From assembly GCA_029251165.1 (NCBI GenBank), contig JAQXDW010000074.1, forward strand, positions 248,001 through 312,000: DNA of 64,000 nt, given 5' to 3'. Numbering within the stretch: position 1 is the stretch's first letter; every line of letters starts with the position of its first letter. Below the pieces are notes generated by a model, which was not told the DNA's origin, ran no database searches, and saw nothing but the letters and a program-made list of their open reading frames with translations. The position numbers and the translations under genes are program-made. This document shows positions 1-36,193 of the stretch, piece after piece. Source of the stretch: Myxococcota bacterium (GTDB lineage: Bacteria > Myxococcota_A > UBA796).

Positions 1-968
1 TCCAAGCCGTAGTGATCCTCGCTGAGGACCGCTGCGGCTTCCTGGAGGGTGGCGTTGTCTTCGGAGCGCGCTGTCCAGGGCATCGAAGAGAGCCACTCCA
101 GCCAGGTCCGAGCGACGTTGTACTCCGCAGCATCTGGGTGCATTCGACGCATCCGGTTCAGCTCGCGAAGGGCCTCCTCCAGGGCCTCCTCGGGCATGCC
201 GGTTTCGCGAAGCTTCTCCTCCATGAGCGCGGCCTCGTCTTTGTCTGCTGGAAGCTCTCCAAGCTCCTGTCGCATGACCCGGATGCGCTCGCGGAGGTAG
301 TAGTCCCGCTGCTGCTTGTCCATGGTGGACTGGACACGCTTGCTCAGCTCGGACTCCATCTCCCGGAAGCCTTCCTCCCGGGCCAGCAGCAGCAGCACCG
401 CATCGACCCGGACATCGACCACCCGCTCGGCGAGCAGGGCGAGACGCTCGAAGCGAGGAATGACGAGGTTGCTGATGATCTGGTCAGCCAGTCGTCCTGG
501 GGCGACGTCGAGGGTCGCGAGCTTCTGGAGTGCGGGTGGGAGGCCGGTGTCCTTTGCGATGAGGGCAGCGAGGTGCTGCCGGAGCTGCTCGGTGCGGTTG
601 GCGACGAAGTCTTCGTCCTGGACGACGGGGCTGAGCAGCCTGACCGATGCCGTGTAGCCCCCGGTGGGATCCAGGCGGATGCCGTTGCCTTGTGCGCGCT
701 GTAGCCCCTCGAGGAGGACTCGGATGGTTCCATCTCCCAGGCGGACAGCCTTGAGGACCCGTGCCGTGCAGCCGACCTCGTGAAAGTTTTCTGGAAGTGG
801 CTGCTCGAGCTCTGGAATCTGAAGCGGAAGCGCAAGAAGGGGACGGCCAGAGCTGAGGTGAAGCTCGACGGCGGCGGTCTCTGAGGGCCGCATGATGTGT
901 AGGCGAGCGATCATTCCGGGGAGGAGGACCGTCTCGTGGATGGGAAGGGTCGGCAGGAGGGTGGGCAT
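1..968 (-). CDS. lon: Lon-type ATP-dependent protease, N-terminal part (cut by window edge)
   Basis: Reading the minus strand from an ATG at 966-968 gives about 322 residues before the window ends. The start, MPTLLPTLPIHETVLLPGM, matches the Lon substrate-binding (LON) domain. The following helical region carries the family signature around 'DKQQRDYYLRERIRVMRQEL' and then 'RMHPDAAEYNVARTWLEWL' just before the AAA+ module, which lies outside the window. Lon is a cytoplasmic hexameric AAA+ serine protease that degrades misfolded and regulatory proteins. No ATG, GTG or TTG lies close upstream in the same frame, which supports this start. The gene diverges from the large kinase gene with 75 bp between start codons, so both promoters must sit there. 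Long open frames on the plus strand here are codon-bias shadows. Confidence 0.9.
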   Translation of the reverse strand, partial: MPTLLPTLPIHETVLLPGMIARLHIMRPSETAAVELHLSSGRPLLALPLQIPELEQPLPENFHEVGCTARVLKAVRLGDGTIRVLLEGLQRAQGNGIRLDPTGGYTASVRLLSPVVQDEDFVANRTEQLRQHLAALIAKDTGLPPALQKLATLDVAPGRLADQIISNLVIPRFERLALLAERVVDVRVDAVLLLLAREEGFREMESELSKRVQSTMDKQQRDYYLRERIRVMRQELGELPADKDEAALMEEKLRETGMPEEALEEALRELNRMRRMHPDAAEYNVARTWLEWLSSMPWTARSEDNATLQEAAAVLSEDHYGL

Positions 969-1043
969 CAGGGCGTGCTCGGTCTCGGGATTGCTGTAGC
1001 CAGATTGGGTTTTGCAGTATCCTGTGCGGCAGACGGAGGCCGG

Positions 1044-4000
1044 ATGGATCTGCCGCGCCGGTTTGGCCGGTATGAGCTTCTTGAGCACATCGCGTCTGGC
1101 GGGATGGCCGAGGTTTTTCTGGCCCGTAGCTTCGGGCTTGAGGGCTTCCAGAAACAGCTCGTTATCAAGCGAATCTTACCGGCGCTCGCCAGAGAGCCCA
1201 GGTTCGTCGCGATGTTTATCAAGGAAGCGAAGATCACAGCGGGGCTGACCCACCCCAACATCGTGCAGATCTTTGAGCTTGGAAAGACCGGCTCCGATCA
1301 CTACATCGCCATGGAGTACCTTCATGGCCGTGATTTGGCGCGAATTAACCGATCTCTACGGCGAACTGGGGAGCGCATGCCGATGCCGCTGGCGGTCTAC
1401 GTCACCGCCATCCTTCTGCGCGGCCTCGCCTATGCCCACTCCTTGACCGATGCGACTGGCGCACCACTCAACCTCGTCCACCGTGACGTCTCTCCGCACA
1501 ATGTTCTCGTCAGCTTTCTGGGAGACGTAAAGCTGCTGGACTTTGGCATCGCGCGACTGACCAGTGCCGAAGAGCAGCGCAAGACCGGACAGGTCGGTGG
1601 CGGTAAATTTGCCTACATGTCGCCTGAGCAAGCCAGCGGCACCCCCCTTGACCATCGCTCGGACATCTTCTCGGCCGGCATCGTCCTCTACGAGATGCTC
1701 ATCGGCGGTCGGCTGTTCCAGCATCCGGATCCCGAAGAGAAGCTGCGGCTTGTTCGAGAAGCGGTCGTTCCAGACCCTCGCGACAAGAATCCAGACATCC
1801 CTGAGGCGCTCTGGAGAATCCTGAAGCGCATGCTCGCTGCGGATCGGGCGGATCGCTATGACCGGGCTGAGGCGGTGGAAGAAGACCTCTGGGCGTTCCT
1901 GTTCTCGCAGGGAAAGCGTGCCGGAGCCTCCGCGATGGTCAACTTCATGACGAGCCTGTTTCCGGACAACGCACGTCGTCGTGCGAGCGTTGACCTTGTC
2001 GGACTCGCTGAGGATGTCGCCAAGCTGGGCCGAGATGATGTCACTGCTGTCAGCGGAATGAACACCGTCTCGCGCCTCGAAGACAGCGCGAGCCTGCAGT
2101 CCGTACAGAGCCGCTCGGAACTCAGCCGGACAGACGGCTCTGCGATGCGTGAGCTTCGCCCCGGCCAGCGCCGCATCGTCACGGTGCTTGTTGCGGAGAT
2201 CACTGGCTTTACGAGCCTCTCAGAGCGTGCTGATCCGGCCGAAATCGTGCGCAAGCACTACCAGATTCTACGGCGAATCAGGCGAATCGTGGATGCCTAC
2301 GGCGGCATTCTGGACTCCTTTCGAGACGACACCTTCGTCATCTTCTTTGGCATGTCCCGTGCTCGCGAGGATGACCTGGAGCGGGCGCTGACCTGTGCAC
2401 TCAGTCTCCAGCGTCTCACCCACAAGCTGAAGCGTCAGGGGATCAGCATTCGCCTGGCCGTCGGCATCCACCTCGGTGAGATAACCATCGGCCACCAGTC
2501 CGATCGCAGGGTCCGCTACCTTGCTCGGGGCAACACCATGAAGCTGGCCCGCCGGCTGTCCATGGAGGCCGACGTCGGAGAGATCCTCATCAGCGACGGC
2601 GCTGCGGACCTCACACGCGGGCACTATCGTCTCTCGGAAGGTCCGGCGTTTCGGCTCAAGGGACACCAAAGCACCAGCATCAGCCACCGCCTCATTCGCC
2701 GTGCGGGCTCCCTTGTGGACAGCGGGCGTTGGTTTGTCCGCGGCAACGAGCTGGTCCAGCTCCAGCAGGCCCTCCGTGCGCTCTCCGAGGGGCAGGGCGG
2801 CTTGATGTCGATTACCGGTGAGGCGGGACTGGGGAAGTCCCAGTTCCTCCGAGAGATCGCTCGGCTGGCTCGAAAGCATGGGGTGCCCTGCTTTGCCAGC
2901 CGTGCCCTTCCGTTTGGCGGGGACTCTCCGCTCGCACCGATCCGGGATCTCATCGCCGGCGTCATCGGGCTTGAGCACGATGACAGCGAGGACATCCTCC
3001 GCACCCGGCTCTCCCGGCTCAACCAGCTCCGAATCGATGACAGCGATCTGGAGCTGATCGCGGCCTTGTTCGGGATTCGTCTTCACCGTCGCCGCCGCCG
3101 CCCTGCCGCTCGGCCCGAAGACATGCTCCGAGCGGCTGCGATCCTGGTCCGTCGGCTGGCGGAGGACAAGCCCCTCATCCTCGCACTGGACAGCGTACAC
3201 AACCTCGCGCCGCTGGCGCGGAACCTGGTCAGCCATGTCATTCGCTCTGCAGCTGGCGCACCGGTCCTGTTCCTGATGACCTCTCAGCGGACCCTCCCGG
3301 CGGACTTCGGGACGCCAACCTGGCGGATCAAATTCAGTCCGCTGTCTCGCGAGCTGCAGGCTGATCTGGCCGCAGAGCTGATGGGGGCTGAGTGCCTCGA
3401 TCCGGATCTCACCAGCCTCATCACCGCAACGGCTCAGGGCAACCCGCTGCACATCGAGCTTCTCGCCAAGGCGCTGACCAACCAGATCATCATCATCAAT
3501 GGTGAGGCTGAGCTGACCGAGGACCTCCCCAACCTTCCGCCTGGAATGGACGGCCTGATTGTTGCCCGGCTCGACGCCCTGGATGAGGAGTCCCGGCGGA
3601 TGCTTCAGGTGGCCGCGACCATCGGGGCATCGTTCTCCATCCCCCTGGTGCTCGCTGCTGCAGGCATCGCAGCTGGAGAGTCCGTGCTGGAGGATGTCAC
3701 CCGGCAGGGCTTCATCGAGCAAGAGTCCTCGACCTCCTGCACCTTCACCAGTCCGCTCATCTGGCAGGTGGTCCGAAGCTCGATCGTTGGCGCCCGGCTG
3801 GTCCAGCACCACCAGATGGTCATCGAGGGGATGGAGGAGCTCTATGGCTCCCACATCGAGGTTCATCGCGTCTCGTTTGCCATACACCATGCCGCAGCAG
3901 AGCGGTACCTCGAGGCAGCCCATCACGCCCTGCTCGCCAGCCGCCGCCTCCTTGAGCAGAACCTCAACCGTCCCGCTGCCGACATCTCTGGCAAGGGGGT

Positions 4001-5120
4001 CCGCTGGGCTGAAGAGGCCCTCCTTCGTGGTGAGAATCCCTCCCGCTGCCGCGCGCTCTGCTCTCGTCTCCTCCTCCAGTCGGGGTCGATCCAGGGCCTC
4101 CTCGGTGAGTACAGCGCCGCAGAGGGCGCCCTGGTGATGGCACAGGACATGGCCGCAGAAGTCGGCGACGCTGAGATCGAGGCCTGCTCGGCCCTCGAGC
4201 TGGGCCGGATGTATCGGTCGCTGGGCCGGACGGCGGTGGCCGCTGCGATGCTTGAGGCGGCCCTAACCTCCAGCAGTGCGGGGACCATGGTGCCGCAGAC
4301 ATCGGATGGTGTCTCGCTGTCGGACGCGGTGGCCTGGCGCCGTCAGGTGTCGGTCGAGGCTCTGGAGCTGACGGGAATGCTCGCGCTGGATGCTGGCAAC
4401 TACGCGGAAGCCCAGCAGCGCTTTCAGCTCGCCCTGACCATGGCCGGCTCCGACAATGCGCTGGCCGCACGGGCGCTCCTCGGGCTCGCCTCTGGTCCCA
4501 TCCGGGCGGGAGCCTCCACGGAGGCCCTGCGCATCCTCGAGGAGGCTGCCGAGAAGGCTGCGCTGTCTGCCGACCGCATCCTCATGGGCCGAATCGCCAA
4601 CAACACGGGCATCGTCTACTACAACGCCCGCCGCTACGAGCAGGCGCTGGAGCACTTCCGACGCTCCGTTTCGCTGCGGCAGGGACTCGGCTATCGCATC
4701 GGAGTCATGGCGAACTACCACAACATCGGCGACACCTACCTCCGCATGGGAGACATGGGGCGTGCATGGGCAGCGTTTCAGCGCAGCCGGGATCTCGCCA
4801 AGCAGGTCGGCAAAGACAACGATGTGGCGCGGAACCAGATGTTCATCGCATTCATCGAGGGACACCCACGATCTGAAGAAGCCCCAGGGGAAGACCCGAT
4901 CGGTCGAATGGAGCAGGCCGCAGAGCGGCTCACGCGCCACCCGGACGTCGAGCTGAGCATCTCTGCGCAGTGGCTGATGGGACGCCTGTTGGCTGCACGC
5001 GGGGAGGGTGATCGGGCGGAGCGTGTCCTGCAGAGCACCCTGACACGTGCGCAGGAGATTGATGTCAAGCCGCTCATCCGAGACATCGAGGAGTCTCTCA
5101 GCGAGCTGACGGCGTCCTGA
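1044..5120 (+). CDS. Ser/Thr protein kinase with cyclase-like, AAA ATPase and TPR domains
   Basis: A 1358-residue signalling protein. The kinase domain (about 8-290) has K42, E61, HRD 146-148 with N153, DFG 166-168 and an APE-like SPEQ. The usual Lys after HRD is Ser, as often seen in myxobacterial-type kinases. A class III nucleotidyl cyclase-like domain follows (about 373-530) with 'GFTSLSERADP'. The first metal position is Glu385 instead of Asp; the second, Asp429, is kept. Next is a STAND/AAA ATPase module with Walker A 'GEAGLGKS' near 592 and Walker B 'LILALDS', then C-terminal TPR-like helices ('GIVYYNARRYEQALEHF'). ATG 1044 was chosen because 'acggagg' lies 6 nt upstream; an in-frame start at 936 would overlap the divergent lon. 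No membrane segment is seen, so it is probably cytoplasmic. Substrates are unknown. Confidence 0.9.
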   Translation: MDLPRRFGRYELLEHIASGGMAEVFLARSFGLEGFQKQLVIKRILPALAREPRFVAMFIKEAKITAGLTHPNIVQIFELGKTGSDHYIAMEYLHGRDLARINRSLRRTGERMPMPLAVYVTAILLRGLAYAHSLTDATGAPLNLVHRDVSPHNVLVSFLGDVKLLDFGIARLTSAEEQRKTGQVGGGKFAYMSPEQASGTPLDHRSDIFSAGIVLYEMLIGGRLFQHPDPEEKLRLVREAVVPDPRDKNPDIPEALWRILKRMLAADRADRYDRAEAVEEDLWAFLFSQGKRAGASAMVNFMTSLFPDNARRRASVDLVGLAEDVAKLGRDDVTAVSGMNTVSRLEDSASLQSVQSRSELSRTDGSAMRELRPGQRRIVTVLVAEITGFTSLSERADPAEIVRKHYQILRRIRRIVDAYGGILDSFRDDTFVIFFGMSRAREDDLERALTCALSLQRLTHKLKRQGISIRLAVGIHLGEITIGHQSDRRVRYLARGNTMKLARRLSMEADVGEILISDGAADLTRGHYRLSEGPAFRLKGHQSTSISHRLIRRAGSLVDSGRWFVRGNELVQLQQALRALSEGQGGLMSITGEAGLGKSQFLREIARLARKHGVPCFASRALPFGGDSPLAPIRDLIAGVIGLEHDDSEDILRTRLSRLNQLRIDDSDLELIAALFGIRLHRRRRRPAARPEDMLRAAAILVRRLAEDKPLILALDSVHNLAPLARNLVSHVIRSAAGAPVLFLMTSQRTLPADFGTPTWRIKFSPLSRELQADLAAELMGAECLDPDLTSLITATAQGNPLHIELLAKALTNQIIIINGEAELTEDLPNLPPGMDGLIVARLDALDEESRRMLQVAATIGASFSIPLVLAAAGIAAGESVLEDVTRQGFIEQESSTSCTFTSPLIWQVVRSSIVGARLVQHHQMVIEGMEELYGSHIEVHRVSFAIHHAAAERYLEAAHHALLASRRLLEQNLNRPAADISGKGVRWAEEALLRGENPSRCRALCSRLLLQSGSIQGLLGEYSAAEGALVMAQDMAAEVGDAEIEACSALELGRMYRSLGRTAVAAAMLEAALTSSSAGTMVPQTSDGVSLSDAVAWRRQVSVEALELTGMLALDAGNYAEAQQRFQLALTMAGSDNALAARALLGLASGPIRAGASTEALRILEEAAEKAALSADRILMGRIANNTGIVYYNARRYEQALEHFRRSVSLRQGLGYRIGVMANYHNIGDTYLRMGDMGRAWAAFQRSRDLAKQVGKDNDVARNQMFIAFIEGHPRSEEAPGEDPIGRMEQAAERLTRHPDVELSISAQWLMGRLLAARGEGDRAERVLQSTLTRAQEIDVKPLIRDIEESLSELTAS

Positions 5121-28281: not shown

Positions 28282-31200
28282 TCAGCGGTAGTCACCCATT
28301 GAGGCGCGGACTTCGATGGCCGAGAGGTCTCGAACCATGCGCTCAGACAGCAGGCCGATCTCTGCCTGGATGAGCTGCAAGCGTGCCTGCTCAAGATCCA
28401 GCGTGGTGCTGCCGCCAGCCTCCTCACTGCGCTCGACGAGGGTGAGGCTCTCGCTGGCGAGGGCGACACGGGCCTCGGCAGCCTCCAGGCTGGCCTGGCT
28501 GCGCTCCAGCTTCTCCCAGGCGTTTCGGATGCTGTCCTTGGCGGAGTTGGAGGCCTGCTCGACCCTCAGCTGTGCTTGGCGTGCCTTGCTGTTCTCTTCT
28601 CGCTGACTCGCCACCCTCATTCCGCCGTCCCACAGCAGCCAGTCTGCCTGGAAGATGACCATCCAGGTGGTGTTCTCGTCGATGAAGCCAGGGTTGTCGG
28701 TGTAGGCGTAGCGAAAGGTTCCTGAGGCTGTCGGCAGCCAGCTCAGTCGATTGGCGGTTGCCGACAGCTCGGCAGCCCGCGCCTGGTTCTGAGTGGCGAG
28801 GACATCAGGGCGGGTGCTGGAGGCCGCCATTGCCTGTGTTAGGTCTACCGGAACAGCCAGCGGCTCTGGGGTGATGAGCTCGCTGTCTTCGGGAAGACCG
28901 GTCTGTCGAGAGAAGGCAATGGCGGACGCCACCTCCTGCTCGCGCGCGCTGAGCATGGCGCTCTGCGCCTCCGCCAGCGCGAGCTTCGCTGCAATCATCT
29001 CTCGCCGGCTGATGCTGCCGGAGGCGAGCTGCCGTGTGGCGAGCTCGACCTGCTGCTCGGCGATGAGCATCCCCTGCCGAGACAGCTTGAGGCCTTCTCG
29101 GCTCAGGGCGAGCTGGTAGTAGCTCGCCGCTACCCCAGCGCGGATCTGCTGACGGGTCCAGTCCTCCATCTGCTGGGCGGAGTCGACGGTTCGCTGCGCT
29201 CCCCACCACAGCACTGGGGTGCGGGCATTGAACAGGCTCTGGTTCAGCGTCAGGCTGCCTGCCGTGGCGGTCTTGGCCTGGATGATGATCGGATCGCCGG
29301 TATCGATTGTGGTCCCTCGGAGCTCATCGGCGTTGTCGAACCAGCCCTGACCGATGGCGGCAGCCGCCGGGTCAGACAAGGCGCTGAAGGAGCCCCCGAT
29401 GCCCTCAAAGAGGTCCGCCTGGGCATCGAGCTGCGCCTGGGGATCTCCGAACGTCGAGGGGTCCAGTGCGGTCTCGTACTGGTTGATGGTGTAGCTGCCG
29501 CCGAGCGAGAGGGTGGGGGAGAGCAGCGAGAGCGCCTTGCCCTTGAGGGTCTCGGCCTGGATGGTTCCCTCTCGGGCGATCGCCAGGTCGATGTTCTCCG
29601 CATCCGCAGCGCGCAGTGCGTCCTCGAGGGTCACCGGAGCGCCCTGCGCCATGGTCGGCATCAGGGCGATGGCGAGGGCGGTCGCCATCACGGTCACCTG
29701 AGTTTTTCCGACCTTGCCACCGGGCATCAAGCGCTTGAGATCGGTGATGATGGCGTACATCGTCGGCACCATGACCAGGGTCAGGAGCGTCGCGAAGGCG
29801 AGCCCGAAGATGACAGCGATGGCCATGGGGCCCCAGAACTCTGCGTTCTGGCCGCCGACCAGCAGCTTGAAGTTGGAGAAGTCGAAGCTCAGCCCCAGCG
29901 CCATCGGGACCAGTCCGAGGATCGTGGTGATCGCGGTGAGCATGACCGGGCGGAAGCGGGTCATCCCGGCCTGGATGAGTGCCTCATCGGAGTCGACGCC
30001 GCGATCCATGAGCTGCTCGACATAGTCCAGCAACACGATGGCATTGTTGACGACGACGCCGGCCAGCGAGATCACGCCGATGCCGGTCATGATGATCCCG
30101 AACGGGGTGCCGGTGATGATGAGGCCCCAGAGCACCCCGACCAGCGACAGCACCACGCTCGCCAGGATGACAATCGGAGTGGTGAAGCTGTTGAACTGGG
30201 TGACCAGGACCACGGCGATGAGGGAGATGGCGATGAGGAAGGCACGCCCCAGGAACTCCTGTGCGTCGCGCTGCTCGTCGTTGGCACCACCGAGTCGAAG
30301 GTCGTAGCCTGCCGGAACGATGCCTTCGCCCTTCATCCGCTCGATGGACGCGATGACATCTGCACGGACTGCGTTCTCGTTGTAGCCCTCTGCGATGTCC
30401 CCCTCGATGGTGACCACCAGCTCTTGGTCGATGTGACGAATGCCGCCGCTGCCGCCCACCATCTCGTAGGACGCGACTGAGGAGAGGGGAACGGAGAAGG
30501 TGTCAGGGCGGGTGTCCTCGCGGCCGGGGATGCGGAGGTTGAGGATGGCCTGGGCATCGGCGCTGAAGCGCGGATCGACCTCGACGACGATGTCGTACTC
30601 GTCCTTGCCGTCTCTCAGTGTGCTCGCAGTGGTCCCTGAGATCGCGGTGCGCACAGCATTTGCGACCCCGCTGGTCGAGGAGCCGACGCGCTTTGCCGCG
30701 CCCCGGTCGATCTGGAGCCGAAGCTCAGGCCGGCCGACCCGATAGTCGTCCTGGATGTCTGCGGTGCCCTCGATCTCTCGGATCTCACGGCGAATCTTTG
30801 CCGCGAGCTCACCGACAGAGTGGAAGTCCGGCCCCGAGACCTCGACGGAGATCGGCTTGCCGACTGGCGGACCGAGGTTCTCCTTCTCGACCTTGATCTC
30901 TGCACCCGGTATCTGGATGAGGGTCTCTCGCAGCCGGTCGATGGTGTCGCGGGTGTTCTCGATCCGGACCTGCTCGCCGGGCTTGGCGGAGTTGCGGTCA
31001 GGCAGGAAGTCCACCGTCATGCGCGCCTGATTGGCGTTGGCCTGTGAGCCGCCCATCGGACTTCCGCCGCCGCCGATGCCGGTCTCGGCGATGGTGACGT
31101 CGACGTTCTCCTGTGTGGCCAGGATCGACTCGATCTGGCGGACGATGCGATCGGTGGTCTCCAGGTCCGTGCCGTCAGGGGTCCGGACCGAGATGGTCGC

Positions 31201-32850
31201 CCGGTTCGGCTCCGTGTCCGGGAAGAACTCCGTCCCATGGTTCAAGGCACCGTAGGCCATGAAGCTGAAGACCAGGGTGCCGACTCCGATCGCCGCAGAG
31301 ATGTAGCGATGGCGAATGGAGACAACGAGCAGGCCACGGTAGCGCTGCATCAGCGGACTCGGAGCCTCCGCGACGGGAGCAGACGGCCCGGTCGTGCGCT
31401 TCATCATGCGAGAGGTCGCGACCGGCAGGATGGCGACCGCAACCACCAGCGAGGAGACAAGCACGATGATGACCGTCTTGGGCAGGTAGCCCATGAACTG
31501 TCCCATGATGCCCTCCCAGAAGACCATCGGCAGGAACGCCGCGACCGTGGTCGCAGTGCTCGCGGCGACCGCAACGGCGACCTCCTTTGTGCCGTCGACG
31601 GAGGCCTCCTTGAGTCCCTTGCCTTCCTCCATGTGGCGGTAGATGTTCTCCACGACCACGATCGCGTTGTCCACCAGCATGCCCAGCGCCAGGATGAGGC
31701 TGAACAGAACGATCATGTTCAGCGTCATCCCAAGGATCTGCACGATGATGAAGCTCATCAGCATCGACAGGGGAATCGCGATTCCGACGAACAGGCTGTT
31801 TCGAGCGCCCATGAAGAACAGCACCACACCAATCACCAGGAAGAGTGCGGTGAGGATGTTGTTCTGGAGGTCGGCGACCATGTTGCGGATCTGCGTAGAC
31901 TGGTCAGCGAGCAGTCGGTACTCGACGCCCTCCCAGCCCTGCGACTGCTCCGCAGCCAGAACCTTGACCGCATCTGCGATGTCGATGATGTTGGCACCAG
32001 ACCGCTTGGTGACCGCCAGCGAGACTGCTGGCTGCCCGTTCATCCGAGCGTAGGTCTCGGCCTCTGCATAGCTGTCGACGACCCGTGCGAGGTCGCGGAT
32101 GAAGATCGGCGCGCCCTCCTTTCGCTTGACCGCGACGTTCTCGATCTGCTCCACCGAGTCGAACTCACCCGGGACGCGGACCAGGAAGCTGGTGTCGCCC
32201 GCCGTGATGTCACCGCCAGGGATGTTGACGTTCTCTTCTCGGATCGAGTTGATGATGTCGTTCTGAGAAAAGCCGTAGTTGGACAGGCGCTGCGGATCGA
32301 ACTGAACGCGGATCTGACGGGTCCGTCCACCAGAGAGGGTGGCATCGAGGACACCAGGGATCCGCTTGATCAGATCCTCCATCTCCTCGCCGTACCCCTT
32401 GAGGACGTCCTGATCGACTTCACCAGCGAGGGTGACAATGAGGATCGGAAAGTCCGAGAAGCTGATCTCCTGAACGGCAGGCTCCTCAGCATCTCCTGGC
32501 AGGCTCACCTTGACCCGGTTGACCCGATCTCGGACCCGCTGGAGCGCATCCTCAATGACCACATCGGGCTCGAACTCCATCGAGATGACGCTGATTCCCT
32601 CGCCGGAGGTCGAGGAGAGCTTCTTGACGTCTTTGACGCCAGACAGCTCATTTTCCATCGGAATGGTGACCAGCGTCTCGATGTCTGCCGGTGAGACGCC
32701 GATGTAGGGCGTCGAGATCATGACTACGGGAATCTTGACGTCTGGAGAAGACTCTCGAGGAAGCGATGTGTAGCTCATCGTCCCGAAGACGACAATACAG
32801 AACACCGCCAGCAGCACCGTCGGGGCATAGCGGACGAATTTGGCAATCAT
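28282..32850 (-). CDS. RND efflux pump continuing in frame into a TolC-type outer-membrane protein
   Basis: One open frame of 1522 codons. Residues 1-1051 are a complete RND inner-membrane transporter: 'LPRESSPDVKIPVVMISTPY', transmembrane segment 4 'ALGMLVDNAIVVVENIYRHM' with D394-N395 where AcrB has Asp-Asp, and 'GVVVNNAIVLLDYVEQ'. It ends at the usual 'LVMVPTMYAIITDLKRL'. Residues 1052-1522 are a TolC/OEP family channel that begins with its own signal-like stretch (VTVMATALAIALMPTMAQG) and 'PVTLEDALRAADAENIDLAI'. No stop separates them. An A5 run (complement of 29703-29707) lies just before the junction. Dropping one A would end the pump at a TGA overlapping GTG 29697. It may be a true fusion, a slippage site or a sequencing error. 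Confidence 0.85.
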   Translation of the reverse strand: MIAKFVRYAPTVLLAVFCIVVFGTMSYTSLPRESSPDVKIPVVMISTPYIGVSPADIETLVTIPMENELSGVKDVKKLSSTSGEGISVISMEFEPDVVIEDALQRVRDRVNRVKVSLPGDAEEPAVQEISFSDFPILIVTLAGEVDQDVLKGYGEEMEDLIKRIPGVLDATLSGGRTRQIRVQFDPQRLSNYGFSQNDIINSIREENVNIPGGDITAGDTSFLVRVPGEFDSVEQIENVAVKRKEGAPIFIRDLARVVDSYAEAETYARMNGQPAVSLAVTKRSGANIIDIADAVKVLAAEQSQGWEGVEYRLLADQSTQIRNMVADLQNNILTALFLVIGVVLFFMGARNSLFVGIAIPLSMLMSFIIVQILGMTLNMIVLFSLILALGMLVDNAIVVVENIYRHMEEGKGLKEASVDGTKEVAVAVAASTATTVAAFLPMVFWEGIMGQFMGYLPKTVIIVLVSSLVVAVAILPVATSRMMKRTTGPSAPVAEAPSPLMQRYRGLLVVSIRHRYISAAIGVGTLVFSFMAYGALNHGTEFFPDTEPNRATISVRTPDGTDLETTDRIVRQIESILATQENVDVTIAETGIGGGGSPMGGSQANANQARMTVDFLPDRNSAKPGEQVRIENTRDTIDRLRETLIQIPGAEIKVEKENLGPPVGKPISVEVSGPDFHSVGELAAKIRREIREIEGTADIQDDYRVGRPELRLQIDRGAAKRVGSSTSGVANAVRTAISGTTASTLRDGKDEYDIVVEVDPRFSADAQAILNLRIPGREDTRPDTFSVPLSSVASYEMVGGSGGIRHIDQELVVTIEGDIAEGYNENAVRADVIASIERMKGEGIVPAGYDLRLGGANDEQRDAQEFLGRAFLIAISLIAVVLVTQFNSFTTPIVILASVVLSLVGVLWGLIITGTPFGIIMTGIGVISLAGVVVNNAIVLLDYVEQLMDRGVDSDEALIQAGMTRFRPVMLTAITTILGLVPMALGLSFDFSNFKLLVGGQNAEFWGPMAIAVIFGLAFATLLTLVMVPTMYAIITDLKRLMPGGKVGKTQVTVMATALAIALMPTMAQGAPVTLEDALRAADAENIDLAIAREGTIQAETLKGKALSLLSPTLSLGGSYTINQYETALDPSTFGDPQAQLDAQADLFEGIGGSFSALSDPAAAAIGQGWFDNADELRGTTIDTGDPIIIQAKTATAGSLTLNQSLFNARTPVLWWGAQRTVDSAQQMEDWTRQQIRAGVAASYYQLALSREGLKLSRQGMLIAEQQVELATRQLASGSISRREMIAAKLALAEAQSAMLSAREQEVASAIAFSRQTGLPEDSELITPEPLAVPVDLTQAMAASSTRPDVLATQNQARAAELSATANRLSWLPTASGTFRYAYTDNPGFIDENTTWMVIFQADWLLWDGGMRVASQREENSKARQAQLRVEQASNSAKDSIRNAWEKLERSQASLEAAEARVALASESLTLVERSEEAGGSTTLDLEQARLQLIQAEIGLLSERMVRDLSAIEVRASMGDYR

Positions 32851-33911
32851 CAGTACGTCACTCGGCCATTGGTGCAGCAGACGCCATCGCGTGTCTTGAG
32901 GAGCTTGTCTCCGTCAGCGAGGCCACGATGACCGGTGATCACCACTCGGTCGCCGACACCGACGCCTTCCTTGATGACGACCTGATCATGGATGACCCGA
33001 CCTGGAGTGACGTCCTTCCAGCGCGCGACGTTGTCGTCGTCGATGAAGACACCCACCCCATCGAGGCGTGTGACCAGCCAGTCCTGCGGGATGACCACGA
33101 CGTCAGAGGCGAGCTCACCGCTGATGTTGGCAGTGGCGATCATGCCCGGCAGCAGCCGACCGTCGGGGTTGTCCACGGTGATCTGCACCGTGAAGGAGCG
33201 GGTCTGAAGATCCGCTGCCGGGTCGATGTGGCTGACCGTTCCCGTAAAGACATCACCGATGGCTTCCGTCGTGATGGCAGCCTTCATGCCTGGCTTGAGA
33301 GAGACGACGTCCCGGTCAGAGACTGAGATCTCAACATGGATTGGATCGAGCTGGACGACGCGGACGAGCGGAGCGCCTGGAGTAGCAATCTCACCCTTGC
33401 TGGCGTTCATCTGACTGACGACACCAGAGAACGGCGCCCGGATGACCGACCGAGAGTGGCTGATGCGTGCAAGATCAGCGTTGGCCTCGGCGATGGAGAG
33501 CTGGGTGCGGACCTGATCGAGCTGAGCATCACTGGCAAGATCGCCGAGCGCCTCGGTCCGCTTGACAGTGGCCTCGGCGAGAGCAAGGTTTGCATCCGCC
33601 TGCTGGCGCTGGGCAGCAAAGACGGCTGTGTTGACCTGAATCAGTCCTTGGCCGCTGGAGACCGCGTCGCCTTCCTTGATGCTGACGCGCTCGATGAAGC
33701 CACCGGAGGCGGAGCCCAGCAGCGCATCATCTGCGCCGACGATCTCGCCGGGCAGGCTGATGTCGAGCTCTGCGGAGGATGGCTGGAGGGTGGCGACTTC
33801 GACACGCGTTCCCGTTGCCTGCGGAACGTCGAGTGCTGTGGTGTCGGATTGCTTCTGCGCTTCAGCCCCGCCGCAGCCAGCGAGGAGAGCGGACAACAAA
33901 ATTGTGGTCAT
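32850..33911 (-). CDS. RND periplasmic adaptor (membrane fusion) lipoprotein
   Basis: The 353-residue HlyD/AcrA-type adaptor has a lipobox in MTTILLSALLAGC (Cys13), so it is probably tethered to the inner membrane. A split lipoyl domain ('FIERVSIKEGDAVSSGQGLI' and 'VIRAPFSGVVSQMNASKGEI') flanks a short alpha-helical hairpin. Beta-barrel and membrane-proximal domains follow ('DVVVIPQDWLVTRLDGVGVF'). It should couple the pump encoded just downstream (1-nt overlap) to its outer-membrane channel. It overlaps tetR by 4 nt. The pump class cannot be fixed from sequence alone. Confidence 0.93.
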   Translation of the reverse strand: MTTILLSALLAGCGGAEAQKQSDTTALDVPQATGTRVEVATLQPSSAELDISLPGEIVGADDALLGSASGGFIERVSIKEGDAVSSGQGLIQVNTAVFAAQRQQADANLALAEATVKRTEALGDLASDAQLDQVRTQLSIAEANADLARISHSRSVIRAPFSGVVSQMNASKGEIATPGAPLVRVVQLDPIHVEISVSDRDVVSLKPGMKAAITTEAIGDVFTGTVSHIDPAADLQTRSFTVQITVDNPDGRLLPGMIATANISGELASDVVVIPQDWLVTRLDGVGVFIDDDNVARWKDVTPGRVIHDQVVIKEGVGVGDRVVITGHRGLADGDKLLKTRDGVCCTNGRVTY

Positions 33912-34474
33912 GGTGAGACCCCATTGAAGAAGATGTCGAGAATTTGATCAGGGAGATTTTCAGGGAGCGGCAAGCCGTGTAGGCAAATCAAGCTCCAGAT
34001 GTTGACGAGGCCAACGAGGTTGATGGCCAGCGTGTCGAGGTTCAGATCGTCGCGAATCTCGCCTCGTTTGACGCCATTTTCGAGGAGCTGAGCGAGCAGC
34101 AGGGTGTTCTCTTGGTGCATCGAGAGGAGATCGATCTCTGGGACTCCTTTCTCTGGTCGGTGCTCCGCAGTCAGCAGCAGCTTCATGACCTCAGGCTGCT
34201 GACGGACTCGGTCGAGATGGGTCTGAAGTGTGCAGGCCAGTCGCTCTCGGAGTGAGCCAGGCTTATCGAGCGCGGTGAGGATGTCTTGCCGGTGGCGATC
34301 CATGTGGGTGTGGATCGCTGCAAGGAACAAAGCCTCTTTGCTGCTGAAGTGATAGTAGAGGGCAGGCTTGGTCAGCCCTACGGCCGCTGCAAGCTCGCGC
34401 ATTGATGCCGCAGAGTATCCTTTCTTGGCGAACAACCTGGTGGCTTCTTCGATGATTCGGCTGCGGGTAGGCAC
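33908..34474 (-). CDS. TetR-family repressor of the efflux operon
   Basis: The 188-residue protein has the TetR N-terminal helix-turn-helix ('IIEEATRLFAKKGYSAASMR', 'ELAAAVGLTKPALYYHFSSK'), followed by an all-helical ligand domain. The start is a GTG at 34474. It is the first gene of the tetR-adaptor-pump operon, so it most likely autoregulates the operon and responds to a pump substrate. A near-perfect inverted repeat 7 bp upstream of the start is the obvious operator candidate. Confidence 0.93.
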   Translation of the reverse strand: MPTRSRIIEEATRLFAKKGYSAASMRELAAAVGLTKPALYYHFSSKEALFLAAIHTHMDRHRQDILTALDKPGSLRERLACTLQTHLDRVRQQPEVMKLLLTAEHRPEKGVPEIDLLSMHQENTLLLAQLLENGVKRGEIRDDLNLDTLAINLVGLVNIWSLICLHGLPLPENLPDQILDIFFNGVSP

Positions 34475-34496: not shown

Positions 34497-34675
34497 TTGG
34501 GACGATTTCCTAACCACACCCTCCTGATGGTCAATTGGCGTGTCTAAAGTTGACATCGCGATCCGCTGTCAGGTGCCATGGCTCACAAGCGAGTCTCGAA
34601 ACTGTCACGCAGTTGGACAGACGCCCCTTCGAGTCTGTGATAGTGGGCCTGCTCACAGAAAATAAGAGAAAGCTC

Positions 34676-36193
34676 ATGCGACTCGGAATCGACTTCGGCA
34701 CCACCCGCACGGTGGTCTCGCTCTGCGACGACGGCAACCACCCTGTGGTCGAATTTGAAGACAGCGAGGGCGTCCTTCATGGCGGCTTTCCCTCGGTCAT
34801 TGCAGCCTCTGGAGATGTGCTCTGCTTCGGCCTGGATGCCGTCGCGCGGCTGGGCGATCCCGCCTGGGCTGTCCTGCCGTCTTTCAAGCGACTTCTCTCC
34901 GGCGCTGTCGAGTCTGTTCGCCTCGGTGAGCACACCTGCCTGCCGGCCGATCTCCTCTCCGGATATCTCCGCGCCCTCCGGTCTGCGCTGCTGACGGGGT
35001 CGACCCTCTCTGAGCACTACGCAGCCGATGAGGTCATCGAGGTGATCATTGCCACGCCGGCCTATGCTTCATCCTCCCAGCGGTTCGCCACGATGGAGGC
35101 CTTCCGGCATGCTGGGTTTGAAGTCATCGGCCTGATGAGCGAGCCGGCGGCAGCCGGTGTGGAGTACGCCAGCCGCTACCAGCGGACCTTCAATTCTCGA
35201 CGACAGACCGTGCTGATCTACGATCTCGGTGGCGGCACCTTCGATGCCTCCGTCGTCTCGATGACTGGTGATGCCCATGATGTGACCGCTACCGCAGGCC
35301 TGCCACGGGTTGGTGGTGATGACTTTGACTCGGTGCTTGCGCAGCTCGCGCTTGCTGCTGTTGGGATTGCACCCGACTCGCTGAGTGCAGCAGAGCGCAC
35401 CTGGCTTCAGCTGCACTGTCGGGATCAGAAGGAGCAGCTGCACAACAATTCTCGTCGGGTGACCGTCGAGCTTGGCGGCATCGCTTGTCTGCCCGAGGAT
35501 GCCTATGCCACCATCCCGGTTGCGGACTTCTACGCGGGCTGCCAGCCGCTCATTGAGCAGACGCTCGCCGTGCTCAAGCCGCTGCTCTCCAGCGGTGACG
35601 ATGCCCTCGCCGGGATCGCTGGCGTGTACGTCGTCGGTGGTGCCAGCGCCCTGCCAGCGGTCAGTCGTGCCCTGAAGGCTGCGTTCGGGCGTCGGGTCCA
35701 TCGCGCGCTGGCACCTGCTGCCGCCACTGCCGTCGGGCTCGCTCATGCCTTCACCACTGTCGCTGCGTTCTCTGAGCCTCTCTCTCGCAGCTTTGGGGTG
35801 TTCCGAGAGTCTGACAGCGGTCGCGCGGTCCGGTTCGATCTCATCTTCGACGCCAGCGTGACGATCCCCGCCAGCGGCCATGTCCAGCAGGTCCGCACGT
35901 ACCGCCCTGCGCACAACATCGGTCACTTTCGGTACATCGAGTGTACCGGCATGGACGACGGCGGCGTTCCCGGCGGTGACATCTCTCCGCTCGCGGACAT
36001 TCGCTTCCCTTACGACGCTGCGCTCAGGGGGGACGATGCCGATCTTGAGGAGGTCTCTGTTCAGCGACTCGCTGAGAAGTTGCCGGTGATCGAGGAGCGG
36101 TACACCATCGATGCCTCAGGCATCATCGAGTTCTCCATCACCGATCTGGACAGCGGATTCACTCACCAGCATCGCTTTGTGCCGCTGACCTGA
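34676..36193 (+). CDS. Hsp70/actin-fold ATPase-like protein
   Basis: The 505-residue protein starts MRLGIDFGTTRTVVSLCDDG, the phosphate-1 motif of the Hsp70/actin superfamily. Phosphate-2 is 'IYDLGGGTFDASVVSM' and the adenosine motif is 'VYVVGGASALPAVSRAL'. After the nucleotide-binding domain (to about residue 370) only about 130 residues remain, with no full DnaK substrate-binding domain or lid. It is therefore one of the short DnaK-like proteins of unknown client. ATG 34676 is chosen because the fold begins there; the frame is open to 34535. It has no DnaJ or GrpE neighbour. A 10-bp inverted repeat begins at its stop codon. Confidence 0.85.
   Translation: MRLGIDFGTTRTVVSLCDDGNHPVVEFEDSEGVLHGGFPSVIAASGDVLCFGLDAVARLGDPAWAVLPSFKRLLSGAVESVRLGEHTCLPADLLSGYLRALRSALLTGSTLSEHYAADEVIEVIIATPAYASSSQRFATMEAFRHAGFEVIGLMSEPAAAGVEYASRYQRTFNSRRQTVLIYDLGGGTFDASVVSMTGDAHDVTATAGLPRVGGDDFDSVLAQLALAAVGIAPDSLSAAERTWLQLHCRDQKEQLHNNSRRVTVELGGIACLPEDAYATIPVADFYAGCQPLIEQTLAVLKPLLSSGDDALAGIAGVYVVGGASALPAVSRALKAAFGRRVHRALAPAAATAVGLAHAFTTVAAFSEPLSRSFGVFRESDSGRAVRFDLIFDASVTIPASGHVQQVRTYRPAHNIGHFRYIECTGMDDGGVPGGDISPLADIRFPYDAALRGDDADLEEVSVQRLAEKLPVIEERYTIDASGIIEFSITDLDSGFTHQHRFVPLT

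Follow-up and report, generated by a model that had tools for sequence, protein, structure and literature searches.

A single-frame fusion of an RND pump and a TolC-type channel with a predicted internal signal peptide in Myxococcota

In the textbook view, tripartite efflux pumps are encoded by several genes, the pump and the channel being separate proteins residing in separate membranes. RND permeases, their inner-membrane pumps, have a cytosolic C-terminus. FbcH of Bradyrhizobium shows that an inner-membrane protein and an exported partner can nonetheless share one precursor: cytochromes b and c1 are made from one gene, whose product is split at the cytochrome c1 signal sequence in its interior. 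Here, we describe a comparable arrangement in a 64,000-nucleotide stretch of a Myxococcota genome (contig JAQXDW010000074.1, hereafter the window), where an RND permease is followed in the same frame by a TolC-type channel. FbcH belongs to an inner-membrane respiratory complex and involves no outer-membrane protein, whereas the window gene does. AcrAB-TolC and MexAB-OprM resemble the window system in their RND permease, lipoprotein-like adaptor and TolC-fold channel but make pump and channel as separate polypeptides; their 3:6:3 assembly (PMC4754349) is expected for the window system too.

The most similar single-frame genes are CusA/CzcA pumps of Bacteroidota (Flammeovirga, Algoriphagus, Reichenbachiella and Anaerophaga), with frames of 1445–1495 aa in which Pfam found both ACR_tran and OEP in the two that were tested. 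Like the window gene, they encode an RND part, an internal signal-peptide-like segment and a TolC part, and their junctions contain AXA-like sites (SKAQ, AAAQ, SYAQ and VNAQ). However, they belong to another phylum and to another RND branch, scoring above the TIGR00914 cut-off. Since the window pump lies far below that cut-off, the two sets of fusions most likely arose separately. A Cytophagales MAG offers a further variant (L159), a 1418-aa frame (355–4608, minus strand) in which a CusA-type RND is fused to a CusB/HlyD-type adaptor. Its junction carries an internal lipobox (LSSAC/TKN), which suggests signal peptidase II and a repeat of the design with a lipoprotein as the partner. A pump-channel fusion as such is thus, as judged from these reading frames, not unique to the window gene.

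The window locus comprises the following features, all on the minus strand:
33908..34474, minus strand: TetR-type regulator, the first gene of the putative operon, whose stop overlaps the adaptor start as ATGA
32850..33911, minus strand: periplasmic adaptor (MFP/HlyD_D23), TIGR01730 above cut-off, with a lipoprotein-like N-terminus (ALLAGC)
29737..32850, minus strand: RND permease half, residues 1–1038 (ACR_tran), ending in the cytosol past the last TM helix
29698..29736, minus strand: basic linker KRLMPGGKVGKTQ, residues 1039–1051, holding the A5 run 29703–29707; proposed n-region of the internal signal peptide
29662..29697, minus strand: hydrophobic h-region VTVMATALAIAL, residues 1052–1063, mean Kyte-Doolittle 2.35
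29641..29661, minus strand: c-region MPTMAQG, residues 1064–1070, with a predicted signal peptidase I site at TMA/QG or AQG/AP
28285..29640, minus strand: predicted mature chain of the TolC-type outer-membrane channel, residues 1071–1522 (Pfam OEP, AlphaFold2, Foldseek)

The ORF list gives 28282..32850 (minus strand) as one ATG-initiated frame of 1522 aa. The original prediction, that a single frame joins an RND transporter to a TolC-type protein, is borne out by Pfam: ACR_tran (PF00873) covers residues 3–1035 almost end to end (profile positions 3–1020 of 1021; 693.5 bits, E=5.7e-208) and the same frame carries OEP in two stretches, the best at 1343–1505. When residues 1033–1522 were modelled by AlphaFold2 with 34 orthologues, the result was a confident TolC fold (mean pLDDT 88.6) that begins at residue 1075, with residues 1033–1072 poorly defined (pLDDT ~50–64). 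Foldseek matched this half to TolC, OprM, SilC and CusC (E down to 3.5e-19, probability 1.00; best TM-scores 0.64–0.83). The c-region MPTMAQG sits immediately ahead of the mature TolC start.

Neither half falls into a curated subfamily. The closest solved structures to the RND half are MexK and MdtB, and it scores below the HAE1/HME cut-offs (RND_permease_2, 595 bits vs 1250; TIGR00914, 398.9 vs 701.45); by these profile scores, the pump is an RND permease that falls in none of the named subfamilies. The TolC half is likewise below the TolC/NodT cut-offs (TIGR01844, 100 bits vs 225; TIGR01845, 47 vs 210). In AcrB, the proton relay consists of two Asp in TM4 (D407/D408) and a Lys in TM10 (K940). 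The regions of the window pump that we take to correspond to these differ from AcrB in both cases: TM4 (residues 390–402, 31645–31683, minus strand) reads GMLVDNAIVVVEN, with one Asp, D394, and TM10 (residues 931–942, 30025–30060, minus strand) reads GVVVNNAIVLLD, without Lys. The window genome has eight ACR_tran matches in about seven pumps, and this is the only one with a frame long enough for a fusion.

The fused gene is the last of three, in the order TetR, adaptor, pump-channel fusion. As had been claimed for gene pairs at this locus, stops and starts overlap, as ATGA at 33911–33908 (TetR/adaptor) and as TGATG at 32852–32848 (adaptor/pump). The overlaps suggest that the three genes are co-transcribed as one operon. 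The N-terminus of the adaptor, MTTILLSALLAGC, is lipoprotein-like. Divergent from the TetR gene lies an Hsp70/DnaK-like ORF at 34535–36193 (plus strand; LGIDFGTTRTVVSLC...).

How widely is the fusion conserved? Within the order, class and phylum of the window genome, orthologues at 39–68% identity have the same stop-free fused frame at 46 distinct loci. In the window genome and 57 related ones, nearly all of the genomes compared being drafts or MAGs, orthologues are one open frame, mostly of 1476–1632 aa, with a few shortened by contig ends. Within the class, an orthologue was found in 29 of 71 genomes, at 48–68% identity besides the window's own copy, and every junction that lies on a contig is fused (the orthologue in G030 is truncated at the edge of its contig). 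At the level of the phylum, 47 of 189 genomes have an orthologue at E < 1e-160; two further groups, f16 and f13, are fused at 39–48% identity and others are tandem or pump-alone. In a search of plasmids, the matches listed did not exceed 41% identity, and no match spanned 80% of the query. Two apparent adaptor-RND fusions (L048 and L073) were rejected, as their extra ~360 residues contain no domain and likely represent a chance frame in GC-rich DNA.

Scored by script and the -3/-1 rule, the fused junctions follow the n-h-c layout of a signal peptide, small residues occupying positions -3 and -1. A hydrophobic 12-mer with a mean hydropathy of at least 2.0 is found at all 46 fused junctions, and [AGSTV]xA follows the hydrophobic segment at 44 of them. 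By simple counting, the charge ahead of the h-region is net positive in most fused orthologues, the exceptions being L023, L039, L113, L138, L142, L145 and L146. In the window clade, the elements occur in a set order (last membrane helix, basic tail, hydrophobic segment, small-x-small motif and a conserved TolC start, VTLExA), and linker length and junction letters differ between orthologues. To provide a null, the letters of each linker were shuffled in 2000 draws across 28 window-clade junctions: (i) AxA within 9 residues of the TolC start occurs at 20 of the 28 vs 7.1 ± 2.2 after shuffling (maximum 15); (ii) [AGSTV]xA occurs at 27 vs 14.8 ± 2.5 (maximum 22); and (iii) the hydrophobic peak reaches 2.39 vs 1.61 ± 0.07. 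Because the 28 rows are related, these values show motif conservation and not independent events. In the textbook rule for signal peptidase I, the cut follows A-x-A (PMC13067283), a motif that a plain linker would have no reason for keeping. The motif is not uniform: the window's own predicted site, with TMA or AQG instead of AxA, is a poorer match than most, and of the fused relatives further away, L122 shows no clear motif and L037 offers LNA only. In the f16 clade (L119–L127 and L139–L146), an acidic stretch of up to 70–80 residues separates the signal-peptide site from TolC.

We therefore consider it very likely that the gene encodes a pump-channel polyprotein that signal peptidase I would split at an internal signal peptide, with 1:1 synthesis of its two parts. 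As the frame and its conservation show, the ribosome makes the RND half and continues without a stop; by the known RND topology, the C-terminus of this half remains cytosolic. The basic tail and the hydrophobic segment, given their conserved grammar, would then act as an internal signal peptide with which export resumes. Signal peptidase I would cut after the A-x-A-like motif and free the mature TolC chain for insertion into the outer membrane, and the pump would keep one extra short membrane helix. Pump and channel would be made 1:1, matching the 3:6:3 complex.

Could the channel also be made separately? Initiation within the junction (at GTG 29697, GTG 29691 or ATG 29688) would add a separate TolC to the one released from the polyprotein, with which it is compatible. 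Such in-frame starts have weak Shine-Dalgarno-like matches in the window and in some orthologues, as with AGGTGA upstream of ATG 29688, but start positions are not conserved and the shorter signal peptides made from them in the window would carry no basic residue. Moreover, 6 of 24 orthologues have a linker without any in-frame start codon, so that TolC there is obtainable from the fused frame alone. We thus regard internal initiation as an unlikely addition.

Alternatively, the fusion could stay uncleaved, the hydrophobic segment serving as a 13th membrane helix and TolC being tethered to the pump. A single frame would be expected in this case as well, and the hydrophobic helix could equally serve as an anchor. 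The geometry of assembled pumps bears on this point. TolC-type channels have helix H1 in their equatorial domain, at mid-height of the 100 Å periplasmic barrel (PMC8277102), and assembled pumps span 23 nm from membrane to membrane, composed of 7 nm of RND, a gap of ~6 nm and 10 nm of channel (PMC4754349). A tether would thus need to cover ~18 nm (RND 7 nm, gap ~6 nm and half of the 10 nm channel), but in the window clade the predicted stretch from the hydrophobic helix to TolC helix 1 is ~11 residues (<4 nm). With so few residues for this distance, cleavage looks structurally required in the window clade. The 70–80-residue linkers of the f16 clade could cross the periplasm, and the argument for cleavage there is the motif itself. 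Since signal peptidase I motifs are kept above chance and a tether would need to withstand outer-membrane insertion, we find an uncleaved fusion improbable.

The junction DNA was described correctly in the original prediction: it reads AAG GTC GGA AAA ACT CAG GTG, with A5 at 29703–29707 and GTG at 29697–29695, and one A fewer would give GGA AAA CTC AGG TGA, the stop overlapping GTG 29697. Three readings had been offered on this basis, of which a fusion with internal processing is supported here, and slippage at A5 and a 1-nt error are not. Programmed slippage would make both a fused and a separate pump, and the window gene does have an A5 run after which the shifted frame meets a stop/start overlap. 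However, among 24 orthologues whose linker DNA was examined, the A5 run occurs in the window gene only (0 of the 23 others; L006 has AAAA and the remaining linkers have G/C runs or none), and the fusion is kept without it, leaving slippage very improbable. The overlap itself is weak evidence, because an in-frame start codon overlapping a shifted-frame stop is found in the linkers of 6 of the 24 fused orthologues, the window's included. A sequencing or assembly error, with a true A4 junction and two separate overlapping genes, would fit the neat GTGA overlap, which resembles those of the neighbouring pairs, and the draft status of the window genome (7.75% estimated contamination), but it is almost certainly not the explanation, as such overlaps are common by coincidence, a TolC started separately at GTG 29697 would lack K/R in its signal peptide, and the fusion is in frame in all covered class orthologues and in further clades with differing DNA and linker lengths. 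The comparison of junctions in related genomes that had been proposed as a check therefore returned the same in-frame fusion, with differing junction DNA, in dozens of independently assembled genomes, and the relatives with two separate genes that would mark an artefact did not appear within the class, where every on-contig junction is fused. As judged by these junctions, the fusion is neither a 1-nt error nor a product of A5 slippage.

What is the origin of the fusion? Most unfused outgroups have the gene order TolC-adaptor-RND. Tandem RND-TolC pairs with an ATGA overlap occur at L135 and L147, and in a set of distant RND-TolC pairs the pump stop codon abuts an in-frame ATG of TolC (TAG at L027, L030, L170, L171 and L172, TGA at L179); L170 lies in the window genome itself (G000:C6:203300-208300). 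A pair of the latter type would need one substitution to fuse. Loss of the pump stop in a tandem pump-channel pair, either abutting or overlapping, is the probable origin of the fusion. TolC has a very short signal sequence free of basic residues at L027, L030, L170, L171 and L172, which makes read-through or re-initiation a candidate at these pairs.

In a quick IQ-TREE analysis of 72 RND domains, the fused label changes five times, a count that pools gain and loss, and at least four of these changes are forced by starred branches (49 of 69 inner branches are starred). Nested in the fused clade is an unfused group from other families and classes (L115–L118, L128–L131, L032 and L033) whose genes end soon after the final membrane helix; downstream there is either no related TolC or a weakly similar one (L117/L130). 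This group is an apparent secondary loss of the TolC half. Its genes are pump-alone or a pump with a different TolC, and not the A4 form of the window junction. L032 and L033 were also considered as a split version of the fused gene, which was rejected: they have no TolC downstream and form part of a small unfused group within the fused clade.

In the open-access literature searched, we found no relevant paper on RND-TolC fusions and no published account of their internal signal peptide. What is informative is that the fusion is conserved here, that it has been gained or lost repeatedly, and that its internal signal is predicted to be cleavable. Together with the Bacteroidota frames, these point, with rather less confidence than we place in the polyprotein itself, to a recurrent strategy: inner-membrane transporters with a cytosolic C-terminus may repeatedly have been fused to an exported partner (TolC or, once, a lipoprotein adaptor), with the basic tail becoming an n-region, signal peptidase I or II serving as the maturation protease and setting the pump:channel stoichiometry, and the fusion itself arising by simple loss of a stop codon. 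Annotators should bear in mind that a 1500-aa "RND transporter" can represent a pair of proteins located in different membranes, and should not handle such fusions as frameshifts. If the single-gene precursor is correct, the ratio of pump to channel would be fixed at synthesis and their placement may be coupled. It would then represent a natural, repeatedly evolved bacterial membrane polyprotein that is matured by a housekeeping signal peptidase.
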